From Heterotrichella gracilis (taxonomy: Eukaryota; Sar; Xanthophyceae; Tribonematales; Xanthonemataceae), in contig JAULBX010026964.1 in assembly GCA_032358255.1 (NCBI GenBank), positions 1 through 41,661 of the forward strand: 41,661 bases of DNA. Direction: 5' to 3'. Positions 469-41,373 of the stretch are shown here, piece by piece (positions within the stretch are counted from its first letter, which is position 1; every line of letters begins with the position of its first letter). The position numbers and the translations under genes were made by a program. The notes under the pieces were generated by a model. It ran no database searches. It worked only from the letters and a program-made list of their open reading frames with translations, and was not told where the DNA came from.

Positions 469-2074
469 GTGACTGGCATTGAGGGTGACCTCCTGCAGTT
501 CGACATCATCGTGGAAACCCTAAGGGCAACCAATCTGGGGGGCCTGGAGGAGGGGTCGCTGGTCAACTTCGAGAGGTGGGGTGGGGGGGGCAAAATGCAG
601 TGGTTAGTGCTGCTGCGTCAGCATCTTGCATGTTGCACCTTGAGATTAGGGCATAGGGTTAATGGTCTCAGGTCTCAACCATATGGTCGTTCCCCTTGCC
701 CAGGTTGGCACGTGTGGACGATGCGTTGGGCGGGCACCATGTGTTCGTGCCTCATGCACGCCCTACCACACCCTCACACCCGGAGACATGACCACACAGC
801 GAGATCAACATGCCTGCCTCCTCCCAACCCTGGACCCTATTTAGAGCCCTACCCACCCAGCCTTTTCTCCCTTGCCCAGGTCAGCGCGGGTGGGTGACGA
901 GATTGGTGGACACCATGTGTCGGGCCACGTGCACACGGTGGCGGCGCTTGCAGGCAGCGAGGAGAGCGAGAACAACCGGCGGGTGCAGCTGCAGGTGGAT
1001 CCAGCCTGGATGAAGTATGTGTTCCCCAAGGGGTTCATTGCAGTGGATGGGGCCTCGCTCACGGTGCGTGGGGGTGGTGGCGGGGGGTGCTGGTGGGTGG
1101 AAGGGTTGTGTGTTTGTTTGTTTTGGGGGGTGTGGTGGGGATGTTGGTGGATGGGTGGGGTTGAAGGAGGCCAGCCTGAGACCCTAAATCCTAGCCCTGA
1201 TCCTTGCAGGAATGGTAAGACAGTCCCTGATTGGTCCCTGTGTACCCTAAACCCTAAATCCTTACATTTCGCAGGTTGGCGAGATGGGCCTCGACTGGTT
1301 CAGCGTGTACCTCATTCCTGAACCATACCTGAACCCTGCCCTAAACCCAATACCCTACATCTCGCAGGTTGGCGAGACCGGCCTCAACTGGTTCAGCGTG
1401 TACCTCATCCCTGAACCCTACCTGAACCCTGCCCTAAACCCTAAACCCTTACATCTTGCAGGTTGGCGAGACGGGCCCTGACTGGTTCAGCGTGTACCTC
1501 ATCCCTGAACCCTACCTGAACCCTGCCCTAAACCCTAAACCCTTACATCTTGCAGGTTGGCGAGACGGGCCCTGACTGGTTCAGCGTGTACCTCATCCCT
1601 GAACCCTACCTGAACCCTGCCCTAAACCCTATACCCTACATTATGCAGGTTGGCGAGACCGGCCCCGACTGGTTCAGCGTGTACCTCATCCCCGAGACGC
1701 TGCGCATGACTGTGATGGGGGTCAAGGGGGTGGGCGACACGGCAAACATAGAGATAGACGCGCAGACGCAGGTGCGGAGGCTATGATTACAGGACGAGGG
1801 TGTAGGGTTGAGGGGTAGTGGGTGGTGGATATTTGCAAACATGGGCATAGGCATTCAGATGTGCTTCAAGCCTACATTGCAGAGTATATATCTTACAAGA
1901 AAAAATGACAAGGGTGTGCGCCCATGGACGGCATCTACATATCCCGCCCCATGCTGCGCTGACACTGCACCCCCCTCCTCCTTGCAGACTATTGTGGACA
2001 CCATTGAGCGGGTGCTGCCGGCGTACTTGGTGGGGCAAGGGGTAGCGCTGCCGACGGCCGGTGAGGGGCGCTGA
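469..2074 (+). CDS. riboflavin synthase (5' partial, 4 exons seen)
   Basis: Riboflavin synthase joins two 6,7-dimethyl-8-ribityllumazine molecules to give riboflavin plus a pyrimidine by-product, the last step of vitamin B2 synthesis (plastidial in plants). Exons: 469-575, 880-1063, 1649-1771, 1988-2074; all are GT-AG and in frame. The first holds the end of the N-terminal lumazine-binding barrel (ETLRATNLGGLEEGS, VNFER). The second opens the C-terminal barrel with GGHHVSGHVH and ends VDGASLT. The third carries WFSVYLIPETL, and the last is the C-terminal helix (TIVDTIERVLPAYL) used for trimerisation. The start of the family, MFTG and the first NG-CLT motif, is missing and must lie left of the window, so this is a partial gene. 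Introns 1 and 2 contain echoes of the following exons (separate entries). The family call is secure; the exon boundaries are inferred from frame and homology. Confidence 0.93.
704..750 (+). repeat. echo of riboflavin synthase exon 2 5' edge
   Basis: This intron stretch repeats the acceptor and opening of the real exon at 880. Both begin with cccttgcccag, then a G, then a diverged copy ending in GGGCACCATGTGT (real: GGACACCATGTGT). The copy keeps frame for several codons (reading about LARVDDALGGHHV) but has no usable donor in register and is not needed for the protein. It lies about 176 bp upstream of the real exon start. Confidence 0.75.
1211..1648 (+). repeat. tandem array of acceptor-plus-exon-edge echoes (93-94 bp unit)
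   Basis: Copies of the riboflavin synthase exon 3 start (GTTGGCGAGAC..GACTGGTTCAGCGTGTACCTCATCCC) begin at 1275, 1368, 1462 and 1556, each preceded by a pyrimidine/C-rich tract and CAG; the real exon starts at 1649. The steps are 93, 94, 94 and 93 bp. A more decayed copy starts near 1211. After CATCCC each copy switches to TGAACCCTACCTGAACCCTG followed by CCCTAAA units, and then the next acceptor. Copies differ by a few substitutions, so they are not identical assembly duplicates. Every copy has an intact AG, so each is a potential competing acceptor, but only the last continues into the conserved ETLRMTVMG sequence. Confidence 0.95.
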
Positions 2075-2737
2075 CGTGGCGGGAGACGGTGGGCTGGCAG
2101 GGGATGGGTGGGGGGTTATGGGTGGGGGAACTTGGCCAGGGAAGGGAGGAGTTTACAATGTTCTATAGGGTTGAGGGTATTCCTGTGAAGCGCCACCGGG
2201 TGTCTAAGACAACAGTCACTAGCCTAAGGACGATCTGGCGAATTGGTCTGGTGTGTTTCCCCTCCTCCATGGCTGTGAATACCCACTATTCCAACCCCTG
2301 CATGCACGGCCCCCCATCCCCCCACTCCTCATTGCTGCGTCCCCTCCACCCGCTGCATTGCCTCCTCCAGTGCCTGGCGGGAGACGGGGGCATGCACCTG
2401 CGCATGGGTTGGCGGGGTTGGGGACACGGGCATCACGGGGGGCGCACCATGTGACACACATGTCTATCAGCATTTGGCGACCGCCACATGGCGCATCAGG
2501 GCGTTGTGATGAGTTCCGATCAGAGCGTGGCGCATCAGCGCATAATGATCAGTTGTAATCAATTGTGATGGGCATATCATGGCGTTGTGATCAGTGCATG
2601 GCAGATCACCACAATGTGCACATGTCTATGGCAATCAACTGGTCAAATCAGTGCTTGTACACGGTAGCCATCACCTGCTATATGCCCACCACCCTGCGGC
2701 ACACCACCTATAGGGGGGGCCCACCACAACATGCGCC
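2075..2737. other. convergent intergenic region with GATCA-rich repeats
   Basis: This is the 3' flank shared by riboflavin synthase (+) and RNase H2C (-). No gene recognised. Positions 2470-2610 hold short imperfect repeats built on TGGCGCATCAG, GGCGTTGTGAT and TGATCAGT, each present at least twice. TGTAA at 2554-2558 (+) is a candidate chlorophyte polyadenylation signal for riboflavin synthase, about 480 nt after its stop. Confidence 0.5.
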
Positions 2738-3614
2738 CTAGGGGTAGACTAATGTCCTATATATAGTCCACCCCTGATGCCCCACCACCTCATGCCCACC
2801 AGTCACACATGGGCATGCACCACACCACCCACAACCGCATCCCACCCCCCATCCACCCCACCCGGCCCCCACCTGTTGCGCCACCGCCAGCCAGTCCAGC
2901 GCCCGCACCATGGGGTCTGTGTCAGTGGGACAGGTGTCGTGGTTCCAGTAGGTGAGGCCGCTGAAGGTGGCGTGCGTTTGCCACTTGGCGCCACCGCAGC
3001 CCGCCACGTCAGCGCCGTTTTCCGCCTGGCGCTGCAGCACGTAGCCGGTGTAGGGGGGGGGCAGGGGGAGGTCGGTGCCTATGGAATAGGGGGGAAAGAG
3101 GGGGGGGGTAAATAGGCAATTTGGGTGGGGTTGTATAGCGAGGTGAGGGGTGCAGAACGTGGGCGTTGTTTTGGGGGGGGCAGGGGGAAGTCGGTTTCTG
3201 CGGGGGTGATAAGGGGGAGGGGGGAGGGGGGTGCCAGGTAGCGGGTGTAGAGGGGGGCAGCGGCAGGCAGGTCTCTCTCTCTCACACACACACACATGCG
3301 CACACAGCACTTCTCGTGTGCTAAGAGGCATCCCACACACCCCACACCCACACCCCACCAGCGCCCCTCCCACCCACCCACCCACCTTTGAGGCTCCTCC
3401 CCCTGAACCACGCCTGCTTACTGCTGCTGCTGCTGCTGCTGTTGTTATTGTTATTGTTATTGTCCCCCTGCTGGCCACTGCTGGCCACTGGGTCCTGTGT
3501 GAGCAGGTATGCGCCCACTGGTGCCGGGCCTGTGTGGGCCAGGGTGCAGGGCAGGAGGTGGAGGGGGGGTGCAGGGGCGGCGGGGTCAAGCACCGCTGTG
3601 GATGGTGCCGCCAT
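2738..3614 (-). CDS. RNASEH2C: ribonuclease H2 subunit C
   Basis: RNASEH2C is a non-catalytic subunit of the nuclear RNase H2 heterotrimer, which removes RNA-DNA hybrids and misincorporated ribonucleotides. Exon 1 is 3614-3386 and exon 2 is 3078-2873, joined in frame (G|GC). Exon 1 has the family N-terminus (LHLLPC, then GPAPVGAYL) and ends FRGRSLKG. Exon 2 gives PYTGYVLQR and the C-terminal signature FSGLTYWNHDTCPTD..ALDWLAVAQQ. Between GPAPVGAY and FRGRSL lies an Asn-7/Ser-7 tract encoded by a trinucleotide repeat, in a loop where the family varies in length. The ATG at 3614 is chosen because conserved sequence starts soon after it. The last codons are unsure: after VAQQ the frame stays open to 2738, or a short third exon (acceptor near 2776) is used. 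A degenerate copy of the exon 2 start lies at 3173-3197. Confidence 0.85.
3173..3197 (-). repeat. echo of RNASEH2C exon 2 5' edge
   Basis: On the minus strand CAG is followed by AAACCGACTTCCCCCTG and a C run. This copies the real exon 2 start at 3078 (CACCGACCTCCCCCTG and a C run). It lies upstream of the real exon within the intron, in keeping with the pattern seen in the other genes. The region is low-complexity, which lowers confidence. Confidence 0.5.
3419..3463 (+). repeat. CTG / TTATTG microsatellite inside RNASEH2C exon 1
   Basis: A CTG run followed by GTTGTTATTG units is read on the minus strand as polyasparagine followed by polyserine. Such tracts commonly change length by slippage, so this site is likely polymorphic. 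It stays in frame because the units are multiples of three. Confidence 0.85.
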
Positions 3615-5331: not shown

Positions 5332-8300
5332 ATGCCCGACCTCAAGCCCCACCACCTGTCGCTGTCCCTGCTGCTGCAAAACTTCCTGCAGCTGCTCCCC
5401 GATCCCCAGTCCCCAGGCGGGGATGACGGGGACCCCCAGGGCCCCACCAGGCGCCAGCTGGCAGCCTTCGTCCACTCACAGCTCACCTCCACTGCCACCT
5501 TCACATACCCTACCCTGGCAGAGCTGGTGGAGCAGCTGCAGGTAAGGGTTTTAGAATTGGTCTGCCACTCGACAGAACGACACCAAACCCTAACCATAAA
5601 ACCCTAAACCCTAAGACAGTGCACAGCGCACGCCGCCAAGGCCACACCACATCACAACGCTTTCTGCGCAACCCTGAGACAGTGGCATATGGCCCCACTC
5701 ACAGGCCACACACTGCCTCTCACCCCCACCCCCTCTTCGCCCACCTTGCACCCCCATCCCCCCCAAACCCCCACCCCTGCAGGCTGCCATCGATGACCCT
5801 GAGGGGGCCTCCGACCTAGTAGGGTTTTTGGTGAACACCCTACGCAGCGTGTCATGCCCCGAGGACCTTGCCCAGCTGGTGGGGGGGCTGGCTGTGTGTG
5901 TGGTGGCTGCACCGGCTGTGCTCGAGGAGGAGGAGGGTGGTGGTGGTGCTTTCGACACCCACACGCAGGGGGGGCTGTTCCTGCGGAGGGTGGTGGCAAC
6001 CTATGAGGCGCTGCCATTTGAGGTGGGGTGGGGGGAGGGGGGTGGAGGGCGGGGTGGCGGGGTCAGGAGGGTGGTGAACAGGATGATATTTTCCTCCCCT
6101 GAATCTAAATCCCCATGCCCACATGCAAAGAAGTTTTCTCCCATCCTGACATGTTATCAGATGGGTATCTGCTGTCCTGCATCCTGCGGATTGCTGATCT
6201 GGCAAGTAAAATAATTTGCTGCCCGGCATTTTTAGTGATTATGTCCCCGCCCATTTGTGACCAATCTCGCCCCACTCCCCCGCAGGCCACCTGCCAGCTC
6301 ATCCGTGAGCTGCACACCTATCTGGAGGAGGGCATTCGAGCAGCACATGCGTCGGGGAGGGGGGAGCCGTTCCCCCCTTGCACCCCCTACGTCAAGAACC
6401 TACTTGACCTCGACAGCTTCCTCAACCAGGAGATTGCGGATGCGGAGAAAACGGTGCGGGTGGGGGGGCCATGTGGCGGGAATGGGGTGTGGTAATGGAT
6501 AATGACGCCAATGAGGCCCGCCCGCTGCGGCGTGCTTGCAAAAATGGATAATGATGAAAAGCGCGCCGCGGCGTGCGGCAGTGGTTGCAAACCATGGGGT
6601 ACAATATCAAATATAGAGGCCCCTATGGACCTACTACGTGTGTTTTTGTACATTTTGTTTTACTTGAGTAATGTGATTCGCTCCCCTCTTGACCCTCCCC
6701 CCTGCTCTCCCCTGCTGCGCAGGTTGGTTCGCTCCCCTTTGGCTACGCCCACCGCCACATGTCGAGCCTGGAGGCCGCAGCAGGCTCCACCCCCAAGGTG
6801 CACCTGGCCCGCCACCTCAGCGCACTCACGCACCGCCACCTGTCAGAGGCAGTGCACGCGCTGCACAAGTGCTTCGACTGCGCCCTAGGTAGGGTTAGTC
6901 AACCACAGAATCCTGGCAGGGGCTTTGCAACTGCTTCATATGCAGACTGGGTATGGTTTCGGGTGTGGAGTTTTAGGGTTTTGAGGCACCGCCACACTGC
7001 GCCCTGGGTAGGGTGGTAGGGTTGGTAGGGTTCTTCAGGCGCCATTGATCCCCCATACCAGACCACATCGCATGCATGGCGAATCGTCATTTTTTAAATC
7101 CCCATCACGTCATACAGCCGATCCATCTCCCCTCCCCTCCCATGCCAATTCCCAACACCGCACAAACCCCCACCCCATCCCTCACCCACCCCTCCACTCC
7201 CACCCCCACCGCAGCCGCCCCCACACCCCCCCACGGCGACCCCGATGCGCCCCCCCACAGCCCCGCGGGCCGCTTCCCCTCCGCGCTGCTCTCCCTGGCC
7301 GCCACCCACGCCGCATTTGGGAGGGTGGAGCAGTCGCTGGCTGCGCTGAATGAGGCGGTGCGGGGGGCGCAGCAGCAGGCGGACGATGTTACGCTTGCGC
7401 ATGCGCTGGCGGCGCTGTGTGCGGTGCTTGCAGCCACTTCGCCTGGTGAGTGGATGAGTGGTGGTTTCATTCTGTCACCAAATCATTATATGTGCGATCA
7501 CAGAGCGTGGTCGCTGGCTGGTGCATTGTCACCCACCTCGCCTGGTGGATTGTGGTGGTGTGTGTGTGTGTGTGTGTGTGTGTGGTTGCATACACGTCAC
7601 TGGGTGGGGATGGGCGCGCAGCGGCAGGCGAACGATGTGACGCATGCGCTGGCGCCGGTGGCGTTATACGCGATTCTTTCCTGGCACTGCGTACATCATT
7701 CCAAAGCAATGCAAATCACCAAATGTATGTACTTTTTCTCAGTGGATGTGCAGAACACGTGGCCTGAGATGTCCATCATCCATTGGCTGGGCGACCTGGA
7801 TCAACCAGGGCATGCGTAATTCTCCCCACACAACCCCATGCCCCAAATCACCCTTCTCCGCCCCCACACATGCAGGCGCGGCGCAGGACGTGGGCGACCC
7901 TCGCGCGGCCCACACAGGCGGTGCGCACCACGTGCAGCTGCTGCGGCTGCTTCAGAGGTGCCTGCTGAGGGCGCAGGGCCTGCAGCTGCCGCACTTGGTG
8001 GCCTTTGCGCACCTGGCCCTGGCAAGGTTCTTCATGCGGCACCGGGTGGAGGGGCCGGAGGGGGCGGGCGTGGGGGCGGGCAGCGGTGAGGGGATGGGAG
8101 GTGGTCTTGGTCTGGGGTGGGGTGTGGAAGCTGGTTGTGGTGCCTAGAGTAGGGTTTTGGGCGGGGTAGGGTTTTAGAGCAGGAGCAAAGTTAATTGAAG
8201 GGTGCACCTAGAGTATGCAGCAGCTTGCAGGAGACGGTTTACAAAACATGTTTGTGCGAGTTTCCACAGTTAGAACCCCCAAACAACTCCTCATCCCCCA

Positions 8301-11300
8301 CACCCACCTGCCCTCACAATGCCCACACCACACATCCCGTCCCGCAAAACTAACATGGCTTCACCCCTGGCCCCCACCCCCCAGCCGCAGCCTCATCTTG
8401 GCCCAACCCCACCATACGCGCGGGAGATGCCCTGCGCGACTGCCTTCACTTGGAGGCGGCAGCCACCATCGCCGCAGCCGTGCCGCTGCCCCCGCCTCCA
8501 GCCCCCACCGGTGGGCCGCTGGGTGTGCCCCGGCGGCCCCCACCGCGCGGCGCTGCTGACCTGTTTCAGACCTCAAACCCTGTGTTTGGGGCCTCGCTGG
8601 CAGGTGCAACCAAACCCTAAAACCCTAAAATAATAATTTCACTTCATCCTAAACCCGCTTCAAGAAACTGTACCGCCAAGTCCAACTCCATGTTAGAGTT
8701 TGCTCCTGGTGTGGCCGAATTGCAGACCCTTAAACCCTAAACCTGAACCCCAACCTTGCCACGAAACCCGGGTTTCGTACTCGCTATATTGCAATGGAAG
8801 TCACGAGGTATCATTTGGAGGCTAAGTGTATTGCTTGTATCTAAACGTTACCAAAACCCTCCCCCCCTCCAGGTGGCCAGGCCCCCGCCTCAGCAGCCGC
8901 CACCTGTCAGCTGGCAGGCGAGTCGCACCTGCTCAGGGCTGCCAGCTGGCGCATGGCTGCCTGCTCCTCATTGGCCGATGGCCATGTGCTTGCCCACATG
9001 GTGGCATGCAGGGGGTCAGCCACTGCCGAGGATCGGTGTGTGGGGTATGCACAGCTGGCGGTGGCTGCGGCGGAGGAGAGGGGGTACAGGTGGGTGGGTG
9101 GGGGAGGGGGGTATTGGCCCCGTGTGAAAATTGTGCGAGACACTGCAAAATACAAACATCTACTTCCATATTAAATTGTAATAGACTGAAGTGGTGCGTT
9201 GGCTACTACTCCATGCTGCATGCTGATAGCTGTGCACAAGGGTGTTTCATTGGCTGGAGCTCAAGCCAATGCCAAGAGACATGCAGATAGGACTATGGAA
9301 TCCAGCAGATTACACCCTGTGCACTATTCCAAATTTCTGCAAATTCTGCTTGTTTCACCACTGACTCGCCCAAGCGCTGAAACCAGACCTTGACCCCCTC
9401 TTTCACGCACCCTGCGCCCACTTGCAGGGCCGCAGAGCAGGTTCTGGCGCTGTGCGATGCCGAGTTCCCCGCGGCATCCTCCCGCGCGCTGGCCATGGCG
9501 CGCGCGGTGATTGCGCAGGGGCGGGCGGTGCGGCGGCGGGACGTGCATGCGGCCCGCCAGATTGCGCAGCGGGCCTGCGGGCTTGCCTCCCCCTCCGACA
9601 CCACTGACATGGACCTCAGGTGGGGGGTGGGGGTGGGGGAGGGGAGACTCCAGCCCAGGGGTTGTGTGTGCATGGCTGGGAAGCTTGCCGCCGGATGTGA
9701 TCAATGGTGTGTGAGTGGGTGGTACATGTGGCTGACTGGCCTCTGCCTTGCCCTACCACCCTCCTGCCTCCCCTTTCCCTCAGGACACATAGGCTGCAGC
9801 CTGACCATATGTGTGTGTGTGTGTTGGCTCCGCCCTACCCGTACCCCCACCCCCATGTGTGTGTCGGCTCCGCCTGATCGCAATTCCCATACCTATTTCC
9901 ACCTTGCAGGCTTGCGGCCCAGGAGCTGTGCGTGCGCTGCCTGCTGCTTGAGGGGCACACCCTAAACCCTAAACAGGCTTCAGGCCAAGGAGCTGTGCGT
10001 GCGCTGCCTGACCCTACAAACCCTTCCCCCCTGCAGGCTTGAGGCTGAGGAGCTGTGCGTGCGGTGCCTGCTGCTGGAGGGGCTCCCCGAGCGAGCCACC
10101 GCGGAGGCCACCAGGCTGTTTGCAATGTGCACACAGGCGGGGCTGCAGGTAGGGGGGGGCGGGGGGGTCAGGGGCCCATGTGGCGGCACCTGCATATACG
10201 CACGTGGCAGCGCTTTTTCGCATTCTTGAGCGGCCGCCACATGGGCCCCTTCAGGCAGTAATTATAATCACAACCGCTCACTTCCATCGCCTCCCACCAT
10301 TCAACCACCACCATTTACAAAATGGCATGACCTCCCTCCCATCCCCTCACTTCCCCGACCCCTCCCGCAGCTCCCCGCTGCCCGCCTGCTGCTGCTGATG
10401 GGTGAGTCGGCTCTGGCCTCCCGCACACCCCTCACAGGCCTGCCCCACGTGCTCAGCTGCCTGCTGCAGGCGGGGGCAATGGGACTGGAGGGGGTGGCGG
10501 CGCACGCGGCGGTGCTGCTGGTGGGTGGAGGGCTGGGGGGAGGGGTGTTGGCATGTGCTTGGCGCGCTGCATGTCACATGCGTATGTGGACTTGTGTGTG
10601 TTTGGTGGTGCGCATGGGATTGGCCACATGCATGCCATGTCCTACATAACTTGATGCATCTGTACTTCGCCACAATGATGTGGCCAAAGCTGGTCCTTCG
10701 TGTTCAAGCCTTTTCTGTAGCCATTGTGTCTTCTTGCACACTCCCGCACCCGCCCGCCCCTCCCTATGAACACCCCCACCCTCTATCCCCCTTGGCAGGG
10801 CGAGCTGTGGCTTGCGCTGGGTGGCGAGTACGCCAGCGAGGCGCTGGGTGCGCTGGCCCCCGTGATGGCGCTGGTGGAGGGCCACGGCCCGCTGCTGCTG
10901 AGGTGCAGGGCCAGGCTGCTGCTGTGCGGGGCCACGCTGTGCGGCAGGGACCCGCAGGGGGTCAAGGGGGAGGCGGCCAGGTAGGGAATGGAGGGGTGTG
11001 AGAAAGGGTGGGGTGGGTGGGTAGATCATGCTTGCAGAAACAGCTGCTTGTGCATGCACTAAATGGCCATGCATAAGGTTATGATACCACAACATGCAAT
11101 GACACATGCCGCATCTATCTTCATGTACCCACACTTTACCACCGCCCACCCTCATGTGCCACCGCAACCACCCACCCACCCTTCCCGCCCATGTGCCACC
11201 ATGACCCTCACTGCCCCATTATCACTTGTATCCTATAACCACCACCACCACCCACCACCTGATCTGCGCACTCCTCCCTTGCTGTGCATGCGACACTCCA

Positions 11301-12593: not shown

Positions 12594-13638
<1,045 letters not shown>

Positions 13639-26100: not shown

Positions 26101-29100
26101 TGGACCACTTGTATGCATATCCAAATGGTGTCCACGCATGTGTTCTAGCCTGCGCAGCCGGCGCCAAGGATTCATGCGAGACAAAACCACCACTGGCTTC
26201 CCCTTACCATTCTTTAACCGTAATGGGGTGGTGCGTATGAGGGAATGCTGTTTCACGCTCACTGTGTCTCTCCACGTCCAACATTCAAGACAGACTATTC
26301 ACACAAACATGTCGAGAGCTCCAAGGTACACTCAATTGCTGCAGGGCACATCCCTCCAGCTGCGCACCTTTGACGGTCAGCTAGCACAGCAGTGGGGGCT
26401 TGAGGATGAAGTGCAGGCCATGGCGGTGGCAGGACCACCTGGCACCGAGCGAGTGGTGGTGGCGCTTGCCTCTGGTGCCTGCCTGCGGCTCACCATTGGG
26501 CAAAAGACTCCTGAGCTGCTGTGGACGCACAGTGAGGGGATCAGGTGGGGAGCGCATTGTAGGAGGTTTGGGAGCTACATGTATATGTCGGGAGTCACAG
26601 GGTCACTTGTGATGTCATTAGGCGCAGACTCAAGGGCTGGGCATGTACAATCCAATGCAGCTGAATCCTAGGTAAATGTTTTCACTGCATTGAGGTTGGC
26701 ATTTGACAGTAGTCTCATGCATTGGCCATGCAGGCACGTGGCCATGGATGCAGCAGGTACCAGCCTAGCTGCCATCGACCACAAGAACACACTTCTGGTG
26801 TACGACTGCACTGCACGCAGCATCACACGCACTGTGCCGGCAGTGTCATCCTGCGCTTGGCACGACCTGCGGCCACACATGCTGGCATACCGCAGCGGCA
26901 TGCATCTGTACTACACAGAGGGATGCCAGGAGCCCCAGGCGGTGCCCTGCCAGGTGAGGAATGAGTCCTGCATTCAAGGGTGTCAGGGATCATGCGCTGC
27001 AAAACCCTAAACCCTGGGCTTCAAAATCCTATGCCACAGATATCACACCTTAGCATTTCCCCACACAATGGACGCACCCATGTACAAGAGTACTACACAC
27101 TGTGTCAATTCATGGCAGCCTCTTCAGAAAGACTTGATAAGGACTCGTGAGGGATTGGCGGTTGTACACTGAGCTGTGCTCCATGGGGTAAAATAAATGA
27201 AAATGATGATAACAATGATTGAAGGATGAAGGACTTGGTGTTCTCCCCCGCCCTCTCTCTTCCCCAGCAAACAGCCAATGTTTTGCTGGTGGGGTGATCA
27301 AGTTGCCTGCTGCAGGGGGAGGTTTGTGCCTTTAGCGGCGGCCACGCCATCTGCCTGCACCCTCATGGAGCGCCCTTCCTGCTCCCCCTGCCCACGGAAC
27401 CAATCCTCCAGCGCCACCTGGCGCAGCAGGACATGGAAAAGGCGTACCAGGCAAGCAAAAACAATGAAAAGGAATTATATCTCACTGCCTGTTTTTGAAC
27501 GCGCTCGTTAATTGAGGGAAGGGGCGTTGGCAATATAGGCGTACCCTCCTGTCAACTATGTCCCTTATCAAGGCAGGCAACCACCTTGTGTTTTAACCTT
27601 GTAAGACCCTTTGCCTCTGCAACCAGCGCCAGGTTGATGTCGCATACAGAGCACTGTGGTGCGGGCAGTGTGTGATATGGGGCTCCTGCCACCATGCGTA
27701 TCTTAGGGTTCTACCTAAACCCTAAACCCCAGTGCGGCTAATCATCCACTGGTGCTGCCCTGCTCGCACAGCTCCAGGTGCCCCAGGCGGCGCAGAAGCT
27801 GCATGATCTGCAGGCAGGCAGCGGCAAGGAGGGGGAAGTGCAAGCGCTGGTAGACAGGGCCAGGCATGCGGAGGAGGGTGGCCAGGCACCGCAGGCAGCA
27901 GCAATGTATGCGCAGGTAATCACATGCATTTTGATGGGCACTGAGCAGCATTCATTCTGTAGCAATACCCATTGTCCCTCCCCTGTGCAGGCCTTCTTTT
28001 ACCTCATTACGGTATGCGTCCTCCTGGCTGCGGCCTGCCCGAGAGCTTGGAAACCCTGAAAACCTACACTCCAAGCGTAAACCCTAAATCACCTAACCAT
28101 TGCAGAATTAACCTTGAATGCGTAAACCCCTAAGCATGAGACCCTACATGCCTGAACCCCTATGCATAACTGCTACCTCCCCCTGTGCAGGCCCACATGT
28201 ACCCCCAAGCGGTGCGCGCACTCCTGCGGGGCAACCTGCCTGAGGATGCTGCCGAGGTGGTGGAGCGGCACATGCACATGGATGTGGGGGGCAATGCGGC
28301 GCTGGTCAGGGAGTGTGCTGCGGCGCTGCAGGGGAGGGGTAATGTGCAGCGTGCGGCGGGGCTATACAGGCTGCTGGAGGATGATAAGGTGGGTTGTGGG
28401 TGTGGGGCCAAGGACGGTGGGGTGCGTGGACGGTGGAGGGTGGATAGTGGAGGCATGAACTTTGGACATGACATGTCCAAACCACATGCGGCCCAACTTC
28501 AAATGGCATTTGAATGGCCAGCCTGAACGGCATTGTGAGGCCCATTTAAAATGGCCAGCCTGAAAGACTGGATCTGTCAACCACTCATGTGCCTTTGCAC
28601 CTGCAAAAGGGGCATCAAATTGTTCTTCGCATTTGTTGATTTTTTTTTGTGTTTTTGCAGGCCCTGGGTCAATTACTGGTGCGCAACCAGCAGTGGGGCG
28701 AGGCGTGTGAGGCGGCGCAGCGTGCGGGGGGTGGTGTGGCGCGTACTGTATACCAGGCCTACGCCAACCACCTGCTGCAGAGGGGGGAGCACAGGCAGGC
28801 AGTGGATGCACTGAGGTCAGGATTTGACCCATAGGTGTCAAATTGTAGACCAGGTCAACGAGCAGCAAGCTGTTTGAATGATCCTTGTTAAAGCTTGTAG
28901 TAGTGGCGTTTGGTGGGTTTTGGCACAACTAAAACCTCCTTGGATCATAGTGGATGCACCTGTCAAGGATATGCCTGACCCCGATCATCGATGCGGCATA
29001 CCACCTGCCCCTGGCAAGTGACACGCGTGGCCTTCCTCCCCACCCCCCTCAGGTGCAGTGGCCAGCCCGCCCCCCTCCGCTCCCTGCTGCAGCGCCTGGC

Positions 29101-33471: not shown

Positions 33472-36400
33472 CTACTTCTGTGTGGAGACAGATGGGTAGA
33501 AGTAGTCTGGCTCGGGCTCCCGGTCGCTCCACGCCAGGTGCTCCACCGTGTTGTTGCGCAGTGAGCGCCACACCGCGCTGTTGCACTTGAAGCCCGAGCC
33601 AAAGGCGATCTGCCACACGCGGTCGCCGCGCTTCACGCCCTTGTGGGACTCGATGTTGGCCAGCACGTACCTGTGGCGCAGGTGTAGGGTTTAATTTAAA
33701 GTTTTGGGGAGGGTTTAAGGTTAAGAATAGGGTTTAGGGAAAGTAAGCCCTTGCCTAACTCAATGTTGGCCAGCACGTACCTGCGGAGCAGGTTTAGAGG
33801 TTATGATAGGGTTGATGGTTTAGGGCAGGTACGGTATTTTAAAGAACTTCATTGTATTTTGTTCGTCCTTAACACCACCGGAGCAGGATGTGTTGCCACA
33901 GCACGACACCGTTCCGCCTGGCGCTATTCTACCTGGCGTGGTTCCGCATGGCGCTAGGTCAAACAGCGTGAGCGACAAGCCCCCTGGACCCCCACCTGCC
34001 TCCCCCCCCACCAGATTACCAATAACATACTAAAAATGGATTCCATTCAAATCTCTTGTTTCTAGCACCCACCAGATGGAGGAGGAGGATGTGTTGCCGT
34101 AGCGCGACAGCGTCTGCTTGGACGGCGCCACCTGTGCCTCGGTCAGCTTCAGCTGCTGCTCGATTGCCTCGATCACGCCCCGCCCGCCGGTGTGCAGGCA
34201 AAAGTGCTCAAAGGCAAGCTTGAAGTCGGGGATGTAGGGGCGGATCTTCATGCGCAGAGCCTGGGATAGCAGGAAAAGAATTGCATTTAATTTCCATGCA
34301 GCATGCCAGGCTCGCTCGTGCCCCAAGGTGTGCATTTCATTTCTACGCGGGGTTGCACGGGTTTGGCTTCTTGTTTTATTCCCCAAGCAGAGAATGCTCA
34401 AAGGCCAGCTTGGAGTCGAGGATGTAGGGGCGGATCTTCATGCGCAGAGCCTGGGGGGAGGGGAAGATGCATCCAATTTCTATGCAGCGGGGGGCACGGG
34501 TCCGGGACCTGGGTGCATTTGACGCGATCCGCAGCGCAAAACGTCGCCCAGCAATGAACCACATGCCCTAAATAAGGTGGATTCGGGGATGTAGGGTGGA
34601 CATTTATCTGAGGTCAACTTATCGTGTCATCTACCTTGCATAATTCCCCTCCCCAACCCCCACATTCCACCCCCAACCCTTCCACCCACCTACCTTTCGC
34701 GCCACCAGGTTGAAGAAAAACCCCAAACCCTACACCCTACACCCCCCACGACTTGCGCACCACCAGTTGAAGAAGAATCTCAAACCCTAACCCCTACACA
34801 CACCTTGCGCGCCACCAGGTTGAAGAAGAACAGCAGCTGCTCCGAGAGCGGCAGCACCAGCGGCCCCAGCGTGGTGATGTTTGCCTTGAGGGCGTGTCCA
34901 GCGATGGCCATCAGCTGCTTGGACAGGTAGATGCCAACCTGGGGAAGGAAACAGAATGCATATATATACCTGGCTAAAACCCAATATAAAAAAGTTCCCA
35001 GCCCTGTCCCTGGAACAGGCGCGCCCATTCATCGTCGCCCACCCTGACCCATGTCAGCAAATGCGCTCCAGCAGGACAGCAGTGACAACCCATGACATGC
35101 GCTCCAGCAGTACAGCAACAAGAACCAACCCGGTCAGGATTTCTGCTGCCTTTACCCACCTTGCCCACGGCGTCCTCCCGCTGTATGACGCAGTTGTAGT
35201 GCCCGTCATCTGCCCCCATGTGGGTGCGCACAGTGTGGACCAGCTCGTACTTGGCGCGGCGGCGGTCGCGGCGCCTGGGGACGGGGGAAAGGGTTGGTGT
35301 TGGTGTTACTTTAGGCCTTTTATGTGAGGTCCTTTCAGGGTTTCAGTGTGTGAACCAGCATATTGGCGCGACAGCAGCAGTCGCTCGATGTGGGGCTAAG
35401 GGATCACGCTCGGGCACTACACAGGAGTTGTCCTCGCTCCAGCCAGCTCTAGCACAAAACAGCCCTCCCAGATTCGCACGTCGCGCCACACAGTTTTGGC
35501 AAACCGCATCCAGGACATGGAACAAAACAGTCCTCGGCCCACCCCGATCCCTGGGACCGTTCCCAGAGGATGGCCTCTTTGCTGGCCAGGAATTCACTCC
35601 AGGATACTGCACCCATGCAATGCGTAGCATGATCCATTCGTCATCCATTCTATTGTACCATAGCCAGGCAGACAGCCCCCCCCCCCCCCTACTCACTTGT
35701 TTGACAGCAGGATGGCTGCGCCCCCCAGCCGGAACAGGCAGTTGGGGATGAGCATGGACTTGTCGTTGCCAAAGTACCAGTTCTGCGTGATGTTCTCTGT
35801 GCTGACCACCAGGGCGTTGCTGTTGGGGTACACCTGCGGGAGGGGGTGGGGGTAGGGTTTGAGAAGTGGGGTTTAGGGTTTTTTAAGTCCCGTTCTGGGT
35901 GGTGTTCACACCAGCGGCGCATTGCTGTTGGGGGGGTGCATTTGCATGTTGTTTATTTCCATGGAGTTTGGGGTACACCTGCGGGGGAGGGCTAGGGTCA
36001 AGTATTTAGGATATGGCGGGAGCTTGACGGTTTTAGACTACCAGCTCAATGAGATGTTGTCACTGCTCAGAAAAAGCCCTAGGGTAAACCTGCAGAATGG
36101 TAGGTCTGTGAATTAGATGATTTTGGGGACGGTTGTACCCTACTCCAGCAAGCGCAAAAACAGATTTGGGCTGATCTCCCCACCTCCTCTGCAGCGCCTT
36201 CTTTGGAAGGCCGACTGCCATTACCCCCACCCTGCCCCATGCCGCCAGGGGAGGGCTAACAGCGTCCTAAACCCACAACCCTAGCCCCTCACCTGCAGCA
36301 CTTGCTTTGCCAGGCACACCGCGATGACCCCCAGATTCAGGAACACATACTATTAACCCTTAACCCTAAACCCCCACCTGCAGCACCTCCTTTGCCAGGG

Positions 36401-39351
36401 CCACCGCGATGACGCCAGCGCTGCACCCCATGCCCGCCAGGTTGTAGGAGTGGATGTTTGACCGCATCTTGAAGTGGTTGATCACCATGGCTGACAGGGA
36501 GGGTGTGGGGTTGAACAGCGAGCAGTTGACGATCAGGATGTCGATCTGGCTGGGCTTCAGGCCTGGGGAAATGACACACAACAATTTTCACAAGGAGAAA
36601 ACCCGATGGGAGTGCTGCTGAGGGTTTAGGGCATACGGCCTAATACCCTGAAGAGTAGGGTTTACGGTAGCCCGCACCTGTTTGGTCCAGCAGGCGCTTG
36701 ACCGCTGAAAACACCACCACCACCCTAGGGGACGTGCTTTAGGGTAAAGAGCACACGGATTAAAGTGTAGGAAACAGTACTCCCACCCAGCACCTGTTTA
36801 GTCCAGCAGGCGCTTGACCACAGCATCTCAGCCTCCTCCCATACCGCTGCATGAAGTTAGGGTTTACAGTGCGTGGGTTAGGGTTGAGGGTTTAGGGCAG
36901 GCCCGTACCTGTTTGGTCCAGCAGGCGCTTGACTGCTGAGAACACCACCATCTCAGCCTCCTCGCGAGCCGCTGCCATGGTGAGCTGGGGGCGCTCAGTC
37001 CCCGGGACCAGGTTGTAGATGGAGGGGTAGGTGTCGGGGGGCAGGGGGCGGCCGATGCTGGCAACCAGGACTGCGAGGGTGGGCAGGCGAGTTGGCCGGG
37101 GCGTAGGGATGCAGGTGGCCTGTTTAATTGCACAGCCAGGTGGCGTTTTGCGTGGCATGTGGGGCATCGGCAGCCCGGTTGACCGTTTCAATGATATAAG
37201 AAGAGCCACAATAGAACCGGTTCAATGTCAATTCTTCGAGTGTGGTATGTAGCGTTACCGGTGCCAGCCCCGCACACTGAGAACGCCGCGTGTGAACTAG
37301 ATTTTGCTTGTGGGGTTTTGGGGTGTAAAATTAGGGCCTGTGGTAGCCCCTGCTTGTCCTAAAATGCAAGGGTACCCGAGGACACCCCGCCTGACCCTAG
37401 ACCCTTACCTGGCGGCAGGTAGGTCCCCTCGCCCAGCCCCGACCGCTCCAGCACCTTGCGCTGGAAGTTAAGGGCGTCCTGGTCAAATGCCTGCAAGGGA
37501 AGGAAGCGCATCGTGAGAAGTGTACATTATTTGGTATAATTTAATCTAATGAATATAATTTAAATATAATGTGTGTACACTACCAAATAATGTCCATACC
37601 ACCAAAAGGCCCGCGAGGGCAAGAAGGGGGAGGAAGGGGGGCGCGTCCTGCTGAGTGCGCTACCAAGGCTGATATGATATAATAGTCCTATTACGGTATA
37701 TCTAGTGACCCTTGCCGTTAATGAGGGCACTTTAGCCTTTTGGCCTCCCTCGCGCTACCAAGGCTAATACCATATAGTCCTATCATATCTTATGACCCTT
37801 GCCGTTACTGACGGCACTTTAGCCTTTTGGCCTCCCTCATGACCAAACACGGCTCAGTGTGCCCCAGATCGGAGCGTGCTGATCACTTGTGCAATAGAAA
37901 GGTGCGGGCATGCAGCACACTAGCCAGGCGCCATGTAGAGCCGTTTTGAGGCAGACGGGAAGCAGGCAGGTAAAACTACGTGCACTCCCAGCAAAAGTAT
38001 GTGCATTCCAACTTCAAAGGCCAGGTGAGCATGACAGGGTACGCGCTCGCCCCAATCCAGGAGCCAACGCTCAACTGACACTGATTCCAGTGTGGCAGGT
38101 GGGAGAGTGTGGGTGGTAGGGTGTAGGATTGCTTTGCACCTTGCACCGCACTGAGCCGTAGTCAAAGTCTGCATAGTTCACGCGCAGGCTGCGAGCAAAC
38201 AGTGAACGGTGTCAGGAGGGGTCGCCGAGCACTATGGCAACGAAAAGCACAAAATATTTATATATAAAAAGTGTCAATAGGCCACCGGCTGCCACACTGC
38301 AGTGGGAAGCACAATAACGCAGTGCAGTGCGCCACTGGTTGCACACATAACGTTTCATGTGTTCAACCAGTGGCACACTGCACAGCGCCCTTCACCATGT
38401 ATACAACCGGCTGCCACAGTGCAACCAGTGGGTCCGTTTATCTTACAAGCCTTGGACCCAGGTGGGGTGATGCATACCCAGCAGTGCTACCCTGGCTGTT
38501 CTGCTGAGTGCATGTACTTCAGAGCAAAAGTGGCAATGGGTAGAGTGCCCACGACATGTAGCGTCAGATCACAGTTGCCTGCAGTGATATGCTGTGACAA
38601 ACATACTGTCAAGGGGGGTCCAGGCGTTGTAGGAACTTACTATTCTGGAGGCTTGTAGCAGTGGAAGTCAACCAGGTACACTGGGCGGGAGCCAGAGAAT
38701 AGATAGGTGGCGGCGACAAACGCCAGGGCCAGGCAGCACGCAACCATGGTCACCTGCACCCACCCATGGCACACCTCAGACCTGCCTGGCGTCACCAATA
38801 TGGCCCTTGGAGGGGTGGGTTTGATGGTGGTGCAAGCAGGAGGGTAAAATTGGGCTGCTTACCAGGTTGAATTGCAGGTCAGTCTGGCGAGCCACCTCCC
38901 AGATCCTCACCAGCTCCCCAGTCTTATATAGATTGGCCAACTCGACCTGAAACCAGGGACAGCGATCAGGAATACAATACTTCCTAAAAGCTGTGTGCCT
39001 CGGTGTAGACCAACCCAAAGCCCTCCCACCGGCTCTGGTGGAGGCTTTTGAACAGTCACATGCAGGGTATCTGCCCTCAACTGCACCACCCACCGTTACG
39101 CTTGCCGCCACCGGAATGAGAACCAGCGTGAGCACATGGCGGCACAGCACCGTGTACCCGCGCTTGACATACTTCAAGGCCACCTCCGTCCGCCGGAAGT
39201 CTGTGGGCCAATACAGTACGTCAGCGGCTGTCAGTTGAGAAGTCAAAGATACTTTCTGCGATATTGCCACGCAGGAAAACGAAGGAACGCCCAACTCACC
39301 TGGAATGGCACGGGATGGCTCCTCGGCAGACTCTCCCGCTCCTTTCCCCAT
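33472..39351 (-). CDS. KCS: 3-ketoacyl-CoA synthase (FAE1/KCS type)
   Basis: KCS condenses malonyl-CoA with acyl-CoA in the ER elongase that makes very-long-chain fatty acids. Thirteen exons: 39351-39300, 39200-39094, 38946-38863, 38753-38641, 38188-38140, 37490-37409, 37070-36909, 36562-36378, 35833-35697, 35274-35160, 34938-34804, 34260-34073, 33670-33472; 1608 nt, 535 residues, all in frame. Two membrane spans lie near the N-terminus (exons 2 and 4), then [13 protein letters not shown]. The FAE1 catalytic triad is intact: Cys at about 263 (AGMGCSAGV), His at about 430 (FCLHTGGRG) and Asn at about 463 ([11 protein letters not shown]). Also seen: [20 protein letters not shown] and the C-terminal [18 protein letters not shown]. 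The start [17 protein letters not shown] has no family match, so the N-terminal 17 residues are less sure. Introns are rich in echoes and hold a hairpin and an AT-rich element. Confidence 0.95.
33761..33800 (-). repeat. echo of KCS exon 13 5' edge
   Basis: Plus-strand CTCAATGTTGGCCAGCACGT followed by ACCTGCGGAGCAGG copies the exon 13 start (CTCGATGTTGGCCAGCACGT, ACCTGTGGCGCAGG at 33649-33682), including the CAG acceptor. It lies about 110 bp upstream in transcript order, and sense CCCTAAA units flank it. Confidence 0.92.
34385..34455 (-). repeat. echo of KCS exon 12 5' part
   Basis: Plus-strand ATGCTCAAAGGCCAGCTTGG, AGTCGAGGATGTAGGGGCGG and ATCTTCATGCGCAGAGCCTG nearly match the exon 12 start at 34204-34263 (GTGCTCAAAGGCAAGCTTGA, AGTCGGGGATGTAGGGGCGG, ATCTTCATGCGCAGAGCCTG). 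It differs at five sites in 60 bp and includes the acceptor side. It is 181 bp upstream of the real exon in transcript order. The frame is open, so it could be mistaken for an exon. Confidence 0.95.
34693..34790 (-). repeat. two echoes of KCS exon 11 3' edge with donor
   Basis: The exon 11 end and donor on the plus strand read ACCTTGCGCGCCACCAGGTT then GAAGAAGAAC (34802-34831). Copies are at 34750-34777 (ACTTGCGCACCACCAGTTGA, AGAAGAAT) and 34693-34721 (ACCTTTCGCGCCACCAGGTT, GAAGAAAAAC). Each is followed by AAACCCTA-type sequence, here in the antisense orientation. Confidence 0.92.
35895..35990 (-). repeat. fragmented echoes of KCS exon 9 5' edge
   Basis: Plus-strand GGGGTACACCTGCGGGGGAG at 35970-35989 repeats the exon 9 acceptor and first codons (GGGGTACACCTGCGGGAGGG at 35825-35844). 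CACCAGCGGCGCATTGCTGT followed by TGGGG at 35910-35934 repeats the next codons (CACCAGGGCGTTGCTGTTGG). Both lie upstream of the real exon in transcript order. Confidence 0.75.
36292..36345 (-). repeat. echo of KCS exon 8 3' edge with donor
   Basis: Plus-strand CACCTGCAGCACTTGCTTTG, CCAGGCACACCGCGATGACC copies the exon 8 end at 36375-36414 (CACCTGCAGCACCTCCTTTG, CCAGGGCCACCGCGATGACG). It includes the donor and is 84 bp downstream in transcript order. Confidence 0.95.
36674..36840 (-). repeat. two echoes of KCS exon 7 3' edge with donor
   Basis: The exon 7 end reads on the plus strand TACCTGTTTGGTCCAGCAGG, CGCTTGACTGCTGAGAACAC (36906-36945). Copies start at 36677 (CACCTGTTTGGTCCAGCAGG, CGCTTGACCGCTGAAAACAC) and 36790 (CACCTGTTTAGTCCAGCAGG, CGCTTGACCACAGCATCTCA). 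In the second copy an internal GAACACCACC has been lost. Steps are 113 and 116 bp. Sense CCCTAAA units and a GTAGGGTTTACGG tract separate the copies. Confidence 0.96.
37524..37593. repeat. AT-rich inverted repeat in KCS intron 5
   Basis: ACATTATTTGGTA (37524-37536) and its exact reverse complement TACCAAATAATGT (37581-37593) flank 44 bp of almost pure A/T. The stretch contrasts sharply with the GC-rich host gene and adjoins the tandem element at 37657-37840, so both may belong to one inserted non-autonomous element. Confidence 0.85.
37600..37845. repeat. two-copy tandem element with inverted ends in KCS intron 5
   Basis: A unit beginning GCGCTACCAAGGCT and ending TTTAGCCTTTTGGCCTCCCT occurs at 37657-37751 and again at 37752-37838, with internal substitutions and a small deletion. 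Each holds GACCCTTGCCGTTA..G.GGCACTTTAGCC. To the left, CCAAAAGGCCCGCGAGGG (37603-37620) is an imperfect inverted counterpart of the unit's CCTTTTGGCCTCCCTC end. This is the structure of a small fold-back/MITE-like element. No coding capacity. Confidence 0.8.
38319..38386. repeat. 30 bp inverted repeat (long hairpin) in KCS intron 4
   Basis: The left arm (38319-38348, GCAGTGCAGTGCGCCACTGG then TTGCACACAT) pairs with the right arm (38357-38386) at 27 of 30 positions around an 8-base loop. A related CCGGCTGCCACA segment lies on each side (38285 and about 38407). The hairpin would form in the KCS pre-mRNA. It may be a fold-back element or a small-RNA precursor. Confidence 0.9.
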
Positions 39352-40402
39352 TGCACAGGCGGCGGGGCTCGAGGCACTCGAGGCAGTTTAAGTCCAAGGG
39401 CCGTGGTGGGCCGATTTCAAATGTTGAACCGGGTTCAGTCCAGCGACGCCCCACGGGCCAAGGTGAATACAGCAGCACCCAACGCAACCCACAACAGCTG
39501 CCAGCTAACACGTTGCAACGCCTGCAACCACAATTTTGCTTTGTGATCTGGCGAATGCCAGCCACTTTTGTAAAGGGTCACGTAAAGGACCTGGACGGTC
39601 CTCGGTCGTCAGACAATTTTTCTGGTCGGTCGGGGGACAACTCTGGCCCCAAATGCCGCCGCCCGCTGCAGCGGCCCGGCGGCGGCAGGCGACAGCCCGC
39701 AAAGGGGGAGTAGTTTTTGGACCCAATTATCTTTTTTCAACAGCAAATACGGATTGGGATCCCCATTCGTGCACAACAAGAGTAGAGCACACCCCTTACC
39801 CATGGTCCCAATACAATGGCCTGGTAACTGCGTGGTTCATCCAAGCTAGATCCTCCGCAAATGCCATCAAATACAGTGCCACAGGTGCAAAGCACCACAC
39901 GCCCCCTGAAAACGGCTCGCAGGCCGCCCCACAAAAATGGACTGGGCGGCGCCAGCAGCACAGCTGTCAGTTGCATGCCGGAAAATAATGATAAATAAGA
40001 TGATAAAGAGGCGGATTGGTTCAAGCCGTTGTTTGGAAAGGGTCACTTCCAAGAGGCCAAAATCCTGCATGTCAGGGTATTCACCCTCCTGCAGGCCCCC
40101 CTTCAACGTGCATGGTACCGCTATTCGCGGCCCAAAGATTCATTCCATCCGCTATCTACATGCAGCAGCGGGCGCCTCTCCACATCAACACCCCGACCCA
40201 AAAGGAGGCCCCAAGACCCCAAGCCATTCACAAAGTCGCTACATTCGCTACCCACGCTGCTCTCCCTTAGCCTCCTGCAGCAACCAATCTCCGTCATCCT
40301 GCATGCGCACCCTCCTATAGGGTTTCACTGAGGCAGCGGCGCGTCGAACCTGGCTAGGTTTTCACAGCGCCGTGGGCGATAAAACCCTCATCAGGGTTTT
40401 CC
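39352..40402. other. intergenic region between KCS start and the next minus-strand gene
   Basis: About 1.05 kb holds the KCS promoter side and the 3' flank of the unrecognised gene at 40403. I see no conserved coding sequence and no telomere-like units except a GTAGGG-like TATAGGGTTTCAC at 40316-40328. A run of CGGCGGCGG-type sequence lies at 39650-39690. Confidence 0.45.
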
Positions 40403-41373
40403 CTACGGCAAGGGGGTGAACCCCTTCCCCGCCTCCAGCACCGACCGCCCCTTGATCGCGTTGGTCGACACGTAGGGCAGGTACTGCGCGGGTGCCACCC
40501 ACAGCGACAGCCCCCCCTCCCGCCTCCACAGCCCTGCGCCGGTCACAAAGGACTGGGGCGCGGGCGCGTAGGTTTGGCTGTAGACCGTGAAAGGGGAGTA
40601 AACGTTGTCCCCTTGGTAGACGGTCAGGTAGTTGAGGTCGGGCGGGGATGCAAAGTCTGTTTTTGGGAGCCCCTCGCCGTTGACTGGCTGTCCCAGGGAG
40701 CCGATGTAGGATGGGTAGAACCACTGGCCGTCGGGGTGCAGGTACAGGTTGCCTGGGGAGAGAGAGGGGATGGGGGTACATGGGAAGGAGGGGTGGAGGG
40801 TGGGGAGTGGGAGTACAGATTGCCTTTGATAAGGGGTTGGTATTGGTGCAGGCGGATGCCGGTGACCACAAATCCCTTGCGGGGTTACATGCCGAGTTGG
40901 TAGAACCCTATCCAGGGTCCAGCCCTCATGCAAAACCCTTACTCGAGGTTCAGCCATCACCAAGGCTTTTGATTACCTGCTTGCAACATGGTGTAGGCGA
41001 GCCGTACAGCATCCCCACTCGATTGACCTCTGGGCGCTGGTACAGCCTGGCGGCAGAAACCCTACCCAGGGTGCACACCCCATGCACCACCGGACGCCTA
41101 GCACAGATCCTTGCACACACAGACGTCATGATGCTGTTCTAAGCTCCACTAACGGCCTCTCACCTGCTTGCGACATGGTGTAGGGCGAGCCGTAGAGCCT
41201 GACTGCCACCCGGTTGGCCTCTGGGCGCTGGTAGAGGCCGATGCCGGTGGCCACGTAGCCCTTGGGTAGGTACACGGGGTTGGTGTCAAAGAACTGGGGA
41301 TTGGAGGCAAAGTCCTGTCCCCAGCCTGGCGAGGCCAGGAATCCAAACACTGAGCTGCCCACTGTGTACGAGA
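40403..41373 (-). CDS. unrecognised protein, C-terminal two exons (5' partial)
   Basis: Exons 41373-41164 and 40752-40403 join in frame (AG|GC) and end at a TAG at 40403; the gene continues to the right, beyond the window. The visible 186 residues include VGSSVFGFLASPGWGQDF, NPVYLPKGYVATGIGLYQRP, VAVRLYGSPYTMSQAGN, LYLHPDGQWFYPSYIGSLGQ and NYLTVYQGDNVYSPFTVYSQ. They are rich in Tyr, Pro, Gly and Ser, with few charges, no membrane segment and no cysteines, which suggests a beta-rich extracellular or surface domain. I do not recognise the family. It is a real gene because the frame continues across the intron and the protein composition is ordered. The intron carries two diverged echoes of the upstream exon. 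Exons further 5' must lie beyond 41374; 41374-41661 looks intronic. Confidence 0.7.
40832..41055 (-). repeat. two echoes of the upstream exon in the last gene's intron
   Basis: 40974-41052 (plus strand TACCTGCTTGCAACATGGTG, TAGGCGAGCCGTACAGC..TGGGCGCTGGTACAG) copies the exon end and donor at 41162-41240 (CACCTGCTTGCGACATGGTG, TAGGGCGAGCCGTAGAGC). 40832-40895 (GTGCAGGCGGATGCCGGTGA, CCACAAATCCCTTGCGGG) is an older copy of the slightly more internal part at about 41230-41265 (GTAGAGGCCGATGCCGGTGG, CCACGTAGCCCTTGGG). Both lie downstream of the real exon. Confidence 0.9.

Follow-up and report, generated by a model that had tools for sequence, protein, structure and literature searches.

The 41,661-nucleotide contig JAULBX010026964.1 of Heterotrichella gracilis (assembly GCA_032358255.1), referred to here in its whole length as the window, raises the question of why introns should carry imperfect copies of the edges of the exons beside them. 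Such copies, called echoes below, were described in the genes for riboflavin synthase, RNASEH2C, APC5, ataxin-2, IFT122 and 3-ketoacyl-CoA synthase (KCS) and in the last gene of the window. The explanation preferred here, with a probability of roughly 0.6, is that introns grow by local duplication followed by survivorship of the functional copy, with a hotspot at exon borders and an association with telomere-like DNA. It is carried by the copies themselves, by a rule governing their placement, by an excess of duplications at junctions over a uniform model, and by the tie of echoed edges to telomere-type tracts lying between the copies.

The sample comprised 184,701 bases (about 185 kb), namely the window and 17 loci of algal composition on other contigs of the assembly (68.5 Mb, 903 contigs); the low-GC, bacterial-looking loci L008 and L013 were excluded, as was L016, of 102 bases. 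Genes were modelled ab initio, without RNA support, by a hidden Markov gene finder seeded with 30 window peptides and trained on the sample, and the splice consensus that it learned was AG|GTGAG at donors and CAG|G at acceptors. Confident introns numbered 137, of which 44 lay in the window and 93 in 16 of the other loci, the latter being out of sample for the preliminary description. Local direct repeats were sought by a gapless scan (score at least 17, period 25-1000) with reversed sequence as the null. Fixed 50-nt queries were run in a gapped test over the 137 introns, with the wrong side, intron middles, exon centres and shuffled pairing as controls. Split alignments were joined into merged events, and four multi-junction events were set aside. 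All p-values are given without correction for the number of tests.

The observation of exon-edge copies proved to be real and dense. Self-BLAST of the window gave 33 local same-strand repeat pairs at most 1.5 kb apart (E at most 1), and the gapless scan gave 54 pairs against 2 in the reversed-sequence null. In the other loci this null was 0 except in L021, where a gene at about 2400-3500 gave 106 null matches and was left out of the event counts; the stretch at about 2469-3390 is a highly repetitive low-complexity gene. As the preliminary description had stated, at least one copy was found in each of the seven named genes, by the scan and in the printed sequences, and the copies detected in the scan span a wide range of decay. 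At a score of at least 17, an edge echo was present in 28 of the 137 introns, 8/44 in the window and 20/93 elsewhere, across 9 of the 16 other loci. Donor edges were echoed in 5/44 window introns and 16/93 others, acceptor edges in 4/44 and 6/93, and intron middles in 2/44 and 7/93; exon-centre queries gave 0/32 in the window and 0/54 elsewhere, and the chance from shuffled pairing was at most 0.0013 per query over the 93 other introns. The reversed-sequence and shuffled-pairing nulls rule out chance similarity. An assembly artefact was also rejected, since most of the longer copies have diverged by anything from several to about 30 per cent, as would not be expected of collapsed or doubled reads; short pairs may be identical. 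When 31 echoes were re-aligned with longer flanks, the splice dinucleotide was covered in 26 and not in 5, and a minority of echoes are exon-edge copies without a recognisable junction. The bacterial control was not clean, with 0 pairs in L008 and 16 in L013; 12 of these 16, with starts between 7910 and 8360, seem to belong to a single stretch with internal repeats. On this bacterial-looking contig, the region at about 7910-8490 contains internal repeats with periods of 75, 165 and 240.

The placement of the copies follows a strict rule, which had been claimed for the window and which also held outside it: copies of a 5' edge lie upstream of the exon and copies of a 3' edge lie downstream. Echoes were found on the predicted side of 31 of 274 edges and on the wrong side of 0 of 237, the wrong-side counts at a score of at least 17 being 0/41 and 0/40 in the window and 0/76 and 0/80 in the other introns. 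A laxer score of 14 admitted one wrong-side match (1/76, other introns). Among merged events, all 38 that involve a single junction obey the rule, with no violations. The rule is unsurprising, because any local duplication across a junction leaves a usable copy beside the rest of the exon. Introns would grow by recurrent local same-strand duplication with a period of about 60-260 bp, and many duplications would include ten to a hundred nucleotides of exon edge together with the adjoining intron, leaving the intron with a spare junction. Purifying selection would then act on the copy that preserves the frame, and the spare would decay neutrally; copies of 5' edges would therefore come to lie upstream and those of 3' edges downstream. 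Slower divergence on the exon side is suggested by the 15 echoes that have 15 or more aligned columns on each side, whose identity was 0.883 in the exon part and 0.806 in the intron part (Wilcoxon p=0.012).

How often duplications should fall at junctions was simulated by scattering duplications of 60-230 bp uniformly over the actual gene structures, removing those that were exon-internal or took in a whole exon or whole intron, letting the spares decay and applying the same detector. In this neutral simulation, 50-53% of detected events were at junctions. The merged events observed within genes at periods of 60-260 comprised 27 junction-spanning, 11 exon/intron and 10 intron-interior events, of which 16, 7 and 8, respectively, lay outside the window. 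The junction share was thus 38/48 overall (p=0.0002) and 23/31 outside the window (p=0.013), against 0.50-0.53 in the simulation, and 27/37 overall (p=0.011) when the exon/intron class was dropped. Donor edges were echoed in 21/137 cases and intron middles in 9/137 (p=0.03); the comparison of donor with acceptor edges was 21 against 10 (p=0.07). A hotspot at exon borders, mainly at donors, is likely but not proven. The preliminary description had expected junction duplicates to be commoner than those of intron interiors; this is so overall (38 against 10), but the excess belongs to donor edges alone.

Telomere-type repeats are abundant in the same DNA. The 14 non-coding 10-mers that are most frequent in the sample are all frames of TTTAGGG/CCCTAAA. 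When up to one mismatch is allowed, the counts of CCCTAAACCC are 175 in introns (72 kb), 34 in intergenic sequence (66 kb) and 2 in coding sequence (46 kb), against 15 in a single dinucleotide shuffle of the full sample. Exact CCCTAAACCCTAAACCC occurs 1206+1231 = 2437 times in the whole assembly, some of which may be true chromosome ends, against 1+0 in the reversed control. The first 100 genomic places of CCCTAAACCCTAAACCC form 86 tracts, among which six neighbour pairs are 97-126 bp apart on the same strand, a spacing equal to the period of the echo arrays, and one further pair is 176 bp apart on opposite strands. Examples in the window are found at 1245-1650, 17316-17524 and 31619-31746. 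In the 137 introns, the G-form in sense orientation, GGGTTTAGGG, lies nearer the intron 5' end in 25 of 27 tracts, and the C-form CCCTAAACCC is found at both ends (23:27). The introns have a G-rich start and a C-rich end, in parallel with the placement of the G-form, which may reflect selection on splicing; TTTAG|GG is itself acceptor-like. CTAAAC was considered as a branch point and set aside, being inseparable from the generally C-rich 3' end of these introns.

Echoed edges are associated with these tracts. The motif lies within 150 bp of 11/21 echoed donor edges and of 23/116 others (p=0.004), or 11/21 and 21/96 in introns of at least 200 bp (p=0.007); for acceptor edges the figures are 4/10 and 13/127 (p=0.02), or 4/10 and 13/107 in introns of at least 200 bp (p=0.04). 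Per merged event, the motif was found in the spacer only in 14, in the outer flank only in 2, in both in 7 and in neither in 15 (p=0.004). Plain tandem duplication of an exon edge together with the motif would give equal spacer and outer-flank counts, and the 14 against 2 observed depart from this. The spacers of 20 junction-pair rows with at least 88% identity, some of them from one array, were classified as tandem in 6 (riboflavin synthase twice, 31562/31659 in IFT122, L022 7786, L022 7014 and L027 6093), as lacking a second spacer copy in 8 (L027 2130, L022 5100, L022 6506, L010 9754, L017 529, W9907, W17687 and W34687) and as unclear in 6. For L010 9754 and W9907 the exon was reassigned to the other copy and the spacer class was kept. 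Plain tandem units are seen in the riboflavin synthase array, W31562 and L025 4116, and the spacer resembles the outer flank (score at least 12) in 10/29, against a null of 5%. The mechanism proposed in the preliminary description, repeated local duplication with conservation of the functional copy, survives in that the rule is what survivorship gives, but "short tandem duplication" alone is too simple.

The junction excess and the tracts between the copies are two features that recurrent duplication and survivorship leave unexplained. Breaks or stalled replication at exon-intron borders, aided by G-rich or telomere-like DNA, may cause the duplications, and part of them may be staggered breaks into which extra sequence was filled, not plain tandem events. 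A break-prone process of intron growth is likely.

Several results weigh against this explanation. Acceptor edges, at 10/137, are echoed no more than intron middles, and when only visibly junction-crossing pairs outside the window are counted the share is 16/24 (p=0.13). The motif was present in 15/28 echo introns and 31/109 others (p=0.02), but echo introns are longer (median 398 against 280) and the whole-intron difference is mostly lost within length classes: 2/7 against 11/41 at 200-300 bp, 3/7 against 9/29 at 300-400 bp, and 9/13 against 8/13 at 400-600 bp. When all 31 echoes are pooled, identities on the exon and intron sides are nearly equal (0.836 and 0.826); we think that this difference is small partly because short intron-side stubs are detectable only when they match. 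Several high-identity pairs have no duplicated spacer, so that not every case is accounted for by one tandem mechanism, and, the sample being one genome, no event was polarised directly.

A purely neutral origin would require neither a hotspot nor a telomere link: tandem duplications would occur uniformly, only those within introns or across one junction would survive, and the conserved half would keep the junction events recognisable for longer. The positional rule follows from such neutral duplication as well, the simulation alone places about half of the detected events at junctions, and both the acceptor edges and the count restricted to visible crossings outside the window agree with it. 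The junction shares overall and outside the window, however, both exceed the 0.53 expected, donor edges surpass intron middles, and the motif association has no place in it, and we consider this origin unlikely. Another possibility, likewise unlikely, is that staggered breaks received telomeric filler. An exon edge left as a long 3' overhang on both ends, extended with repeats by telomerase or from a telomeric template and then filled in, would give the order edge, filler, edge, that is, a long target-site duplication. The motif in the spacer only and the 8/20 high-identity rows without a second spacer copy would fit, and the part of PMC7215372 that treats telomeric insertions in the horse ascribes direct duplications at a few of them to staggered breaks. 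Such filling predicts that TTTAGGG should follow the upstream copy and CCCTAAA precede the downstream one, but this prediction of orientation failed: TTTAGGG was nearer the upstream copy in 10 and the downstream in 7, and CCCTAAA nearer the downstream in 21 and the upstream in 18. Moreover, the motif is in neither spacer nor flank in 15/38 merged events, three of the eight rows (L027 2130, L017 529 and W34687) have a more decayed copy inside the spacer and are arrays rather than clean insertions, and the tract at L010 4814 sits as an insertion within a unit that is otherwise duplicated.

A further possibility is that the echoes are functional arrays, retained as competing, recursive or alternative splice sites. 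In its favour, the splice dinucleotides are intact in 24/26 covered echoes, while in the exon part the same words are intact in 53/87 (p=0.002), and in riboflavin synthase the real copy and four upstream array copies all read AG|GT. The excess over control words is gone when the five uncovered echoes are counted as lost (24/31, p=0.13), the copies range widely in decay, and the comparison is biased in that the real site is invariant and the exon words also change at synonymous sites; such a function appears quite improbable. Among the covered echoes there was no sign that decoy splice sites are purged (24/26 intact), and cells may tolerate intact decoy sites or may have yet to lose them, the apparent retention being open to ascertainment. 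Introners are mobile elements that disperse through a genome, bringing or copying splice sites and leaving target-site duplications; their insertion would account for the direct duplications around a spacer, which resemble such target-site duplications. No family was found for four echo introns searched genome-wide, in a search that skips simple and very common words and that a very short element could escape. The riboflavin synthase and L027 introns match themselves alone, the L017 intron matches itself and its own exon edge, and the L022 intron matches itself and stretches of 33-63 bases, mostly at its telomere-like start. Introners are thus a very improbable source.

Gene by gene, the largest case is in riboflavin synthase, on the forward strand, for which the highest identity among the proteins listed is about 70%, to Trebouxia and other green algae. 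The exon at 880..1063 (gene model; Pfam Lum_binding) has an echo of its acceptor edge, ccttgcccag and the exon start, at 693..744 (+), 77% identical and 176 bp upstream, seen by self-BLAST and in the scan. The exon at 1649..1771 (+) has its acceptor edge repeated in a 94-bp x4.8 array at 1245..1692 (+), of the tandem class, whose unit consists of a telomere-like CCCTAAACCC spacer, the acceptor and the exon start; four copies stand upstream of the real edge and every GCAG is intact. By eye, an older degenerate copy of the unit, with GCAG at 1206, is visible at 1190..1250 (+). Neither the FER|SAR junction nor the SLT|VGE junction shows an insertion in homologues (0/60 at each, the first 60 of 120 listed), and the copies at these two echoed junctions are therefore non-coding. 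An allelic copy of this gene was sought and rejected: contig C755 matches it in part but represents another locus, and the intron occurs only once in the assembly. A match to rbcL was also looked for in the assembly, and none was found. Low-GC stretches on contigs C1, C100, C111 and C442 probably represent bacterial contigs within the assembly; C111 and C442 gave a riboflavin synthase match, and two of the four low-GC contigs carry two adjacent lumazine-binding matches of one riboflavin synthase.

In RNASEH2C (reverse strand; Pfam RNase_H2_suC), an acceptor-edge echo of exon 3078-2873 lies at 3151..3232 and was found by self-BLAST and re-alignment. APC5 (forward strand; Pfam ANAPC5) has a weak 19-nt donor-edge echo of exon 6723-6888 at 6996..7014, from the scan, and two echoes of the acceptor edge of exon 10037, one at 9907..9943 (scan and printed sequence), partly miscalled as an exon, and one at 9974..10010, preceded directly by CCCTAAACCCTAAA. 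Four echoes are found in ataxin-2 on the reverse strand (Pfam LsmAD and SM-ATX): at 17424..17469 from the acceptor edge of exon 17357-17235, within a 104-bp x2 array at 17316-17524 with telomere-like tracts; at 17687..17714 from the 3' end of exon 17964-17775, the donor dinucleotide being uncovered; and at 18227..18284 and 18890..18953 from the donor edges of exons 18541-18327 and 19363-19066. IFT122 (forward strand), whose identity is backed by relatives with solved structures, has an acceptor-edge echo of exon 28191-28388 at 27980..28026 and donor-edge echoes at 29665..29700 (exon end 29602) and 31659..31726 (exon end 31603), the latter 90% identical and with CCCTAAACCCTA inside the unit. 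A 42-bp x3 tandem repeat occupies 29726-29850 in an IFT122 intron.

In KCS (reverse strand; Pfam FAE1_CUT1_RppA and C-terminal domains), the acceptor edge at about 34260 has a 95% copy upstream of it, at 34395..34455; the edge itself was judged real by eye from the continuing reading frame, the gene finder having used the echo. The echo at 34376-34455 is open and stop-terminated and hence resembles a terminal exon to the gene finder. Donor-edge echoes in KCS lie at 34687..34721 (exon 34938-34804, with a more decayed copy between), at 36270..36331 (exon 36562-36378, 84% over 62 nt) and at 36670..36719 (exon 37070-36909, 94%, with a further copy at 36787-36818). The last gene, on the reverse strand, for which no Pfam match was found, has a donor-edge echo of exon 41373-41164 at 40975..41045. 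Besides the domains named above, Pfam matched a ubiquitin-conjugating enzyme. In L027, the 81-bp exon end and donor at 756-836 has a 96% identical copy at 945-1025, 189 bp downstream behind AAG; this copy was read as an exon by the gene finder and is a possible alternative exon.

Echoes at APC5 9910-9927, KCS 34450-34376 and L010 9768-9834 were miscalled as exons, and the riboflavin synthase model was hand-corrected from homology after echoes had misled the gene finder. Gene finders run on such genomes can take echoes for exons, as happened here.

Known systems share parts of this picture. Tandem genomic duplication is a described source of introns, and the AGGT model, as outlined in the relevant part of a review (PMC3443670), likewise starts from a coding segment that contains a splice-like AGGT and is duplicated locally, with splice signals on both copies. 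Here, however, the copies sit in existing introns and the segment spans a junction, and a new intron is not claimed. Mammalian interstitial telomeric sequences, in the portion of PMC7215372 concerned with them, are also short telomeric tracts inside chromosomes, some with flanking direct duplication. The repeat here differs in being of plant type, present in thousands of copies, densest in introns and beside exon-edge duplications, and its orientation is not the one predicted. Plant telo boxes share the word AAACCCTA and its rarity in coding sequence, but according to the part of PMC3022908 that reports on them they are enriched in the 5' untranslated region. The intron densities given there are 150.7/Mb in Arabidopsis and 72/Mb in rice; the 1879/Mb of the present introns is about 12 times the Arabidopsis figure, with both strands counted here and a strand convention in PMC3022908 that may differ.

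Introners similarly add intron sequence with flanking duplication, but no dispersed family was found here for the four introns. Intronic minisatellites are arrays with units of tens to hundreds of bp; here, each unit takes in an exon edge, and the array counts the real exon among its members. Among the titles listed in full-text literature searches, none reports exon-edge echoes in green algae, or tracts of telomere type at the ends of their introns.

The lengthening of introns is usually ascribed to mobile elements or to unexplained drift. If the rate of 28/137 holds genome-wide, very many events of different ages would have contributed intron material that is recognisable as the neighbouring exon edge, often beside telomere-type DNA. 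A stronger and doubtful proposal is that exon-intron borders are fragile, that repair of the breaks there puts telomere-type filler between two copies of an exon edge, and that the introns are largely built or lengthened from such repair scars; if true, the scars would also supply introns with a stock of ready-made spare splice sites. The positions of breaks in genes, the mode of their repair and the tolerance of many intact decoy splice sites are thereby opened to test.

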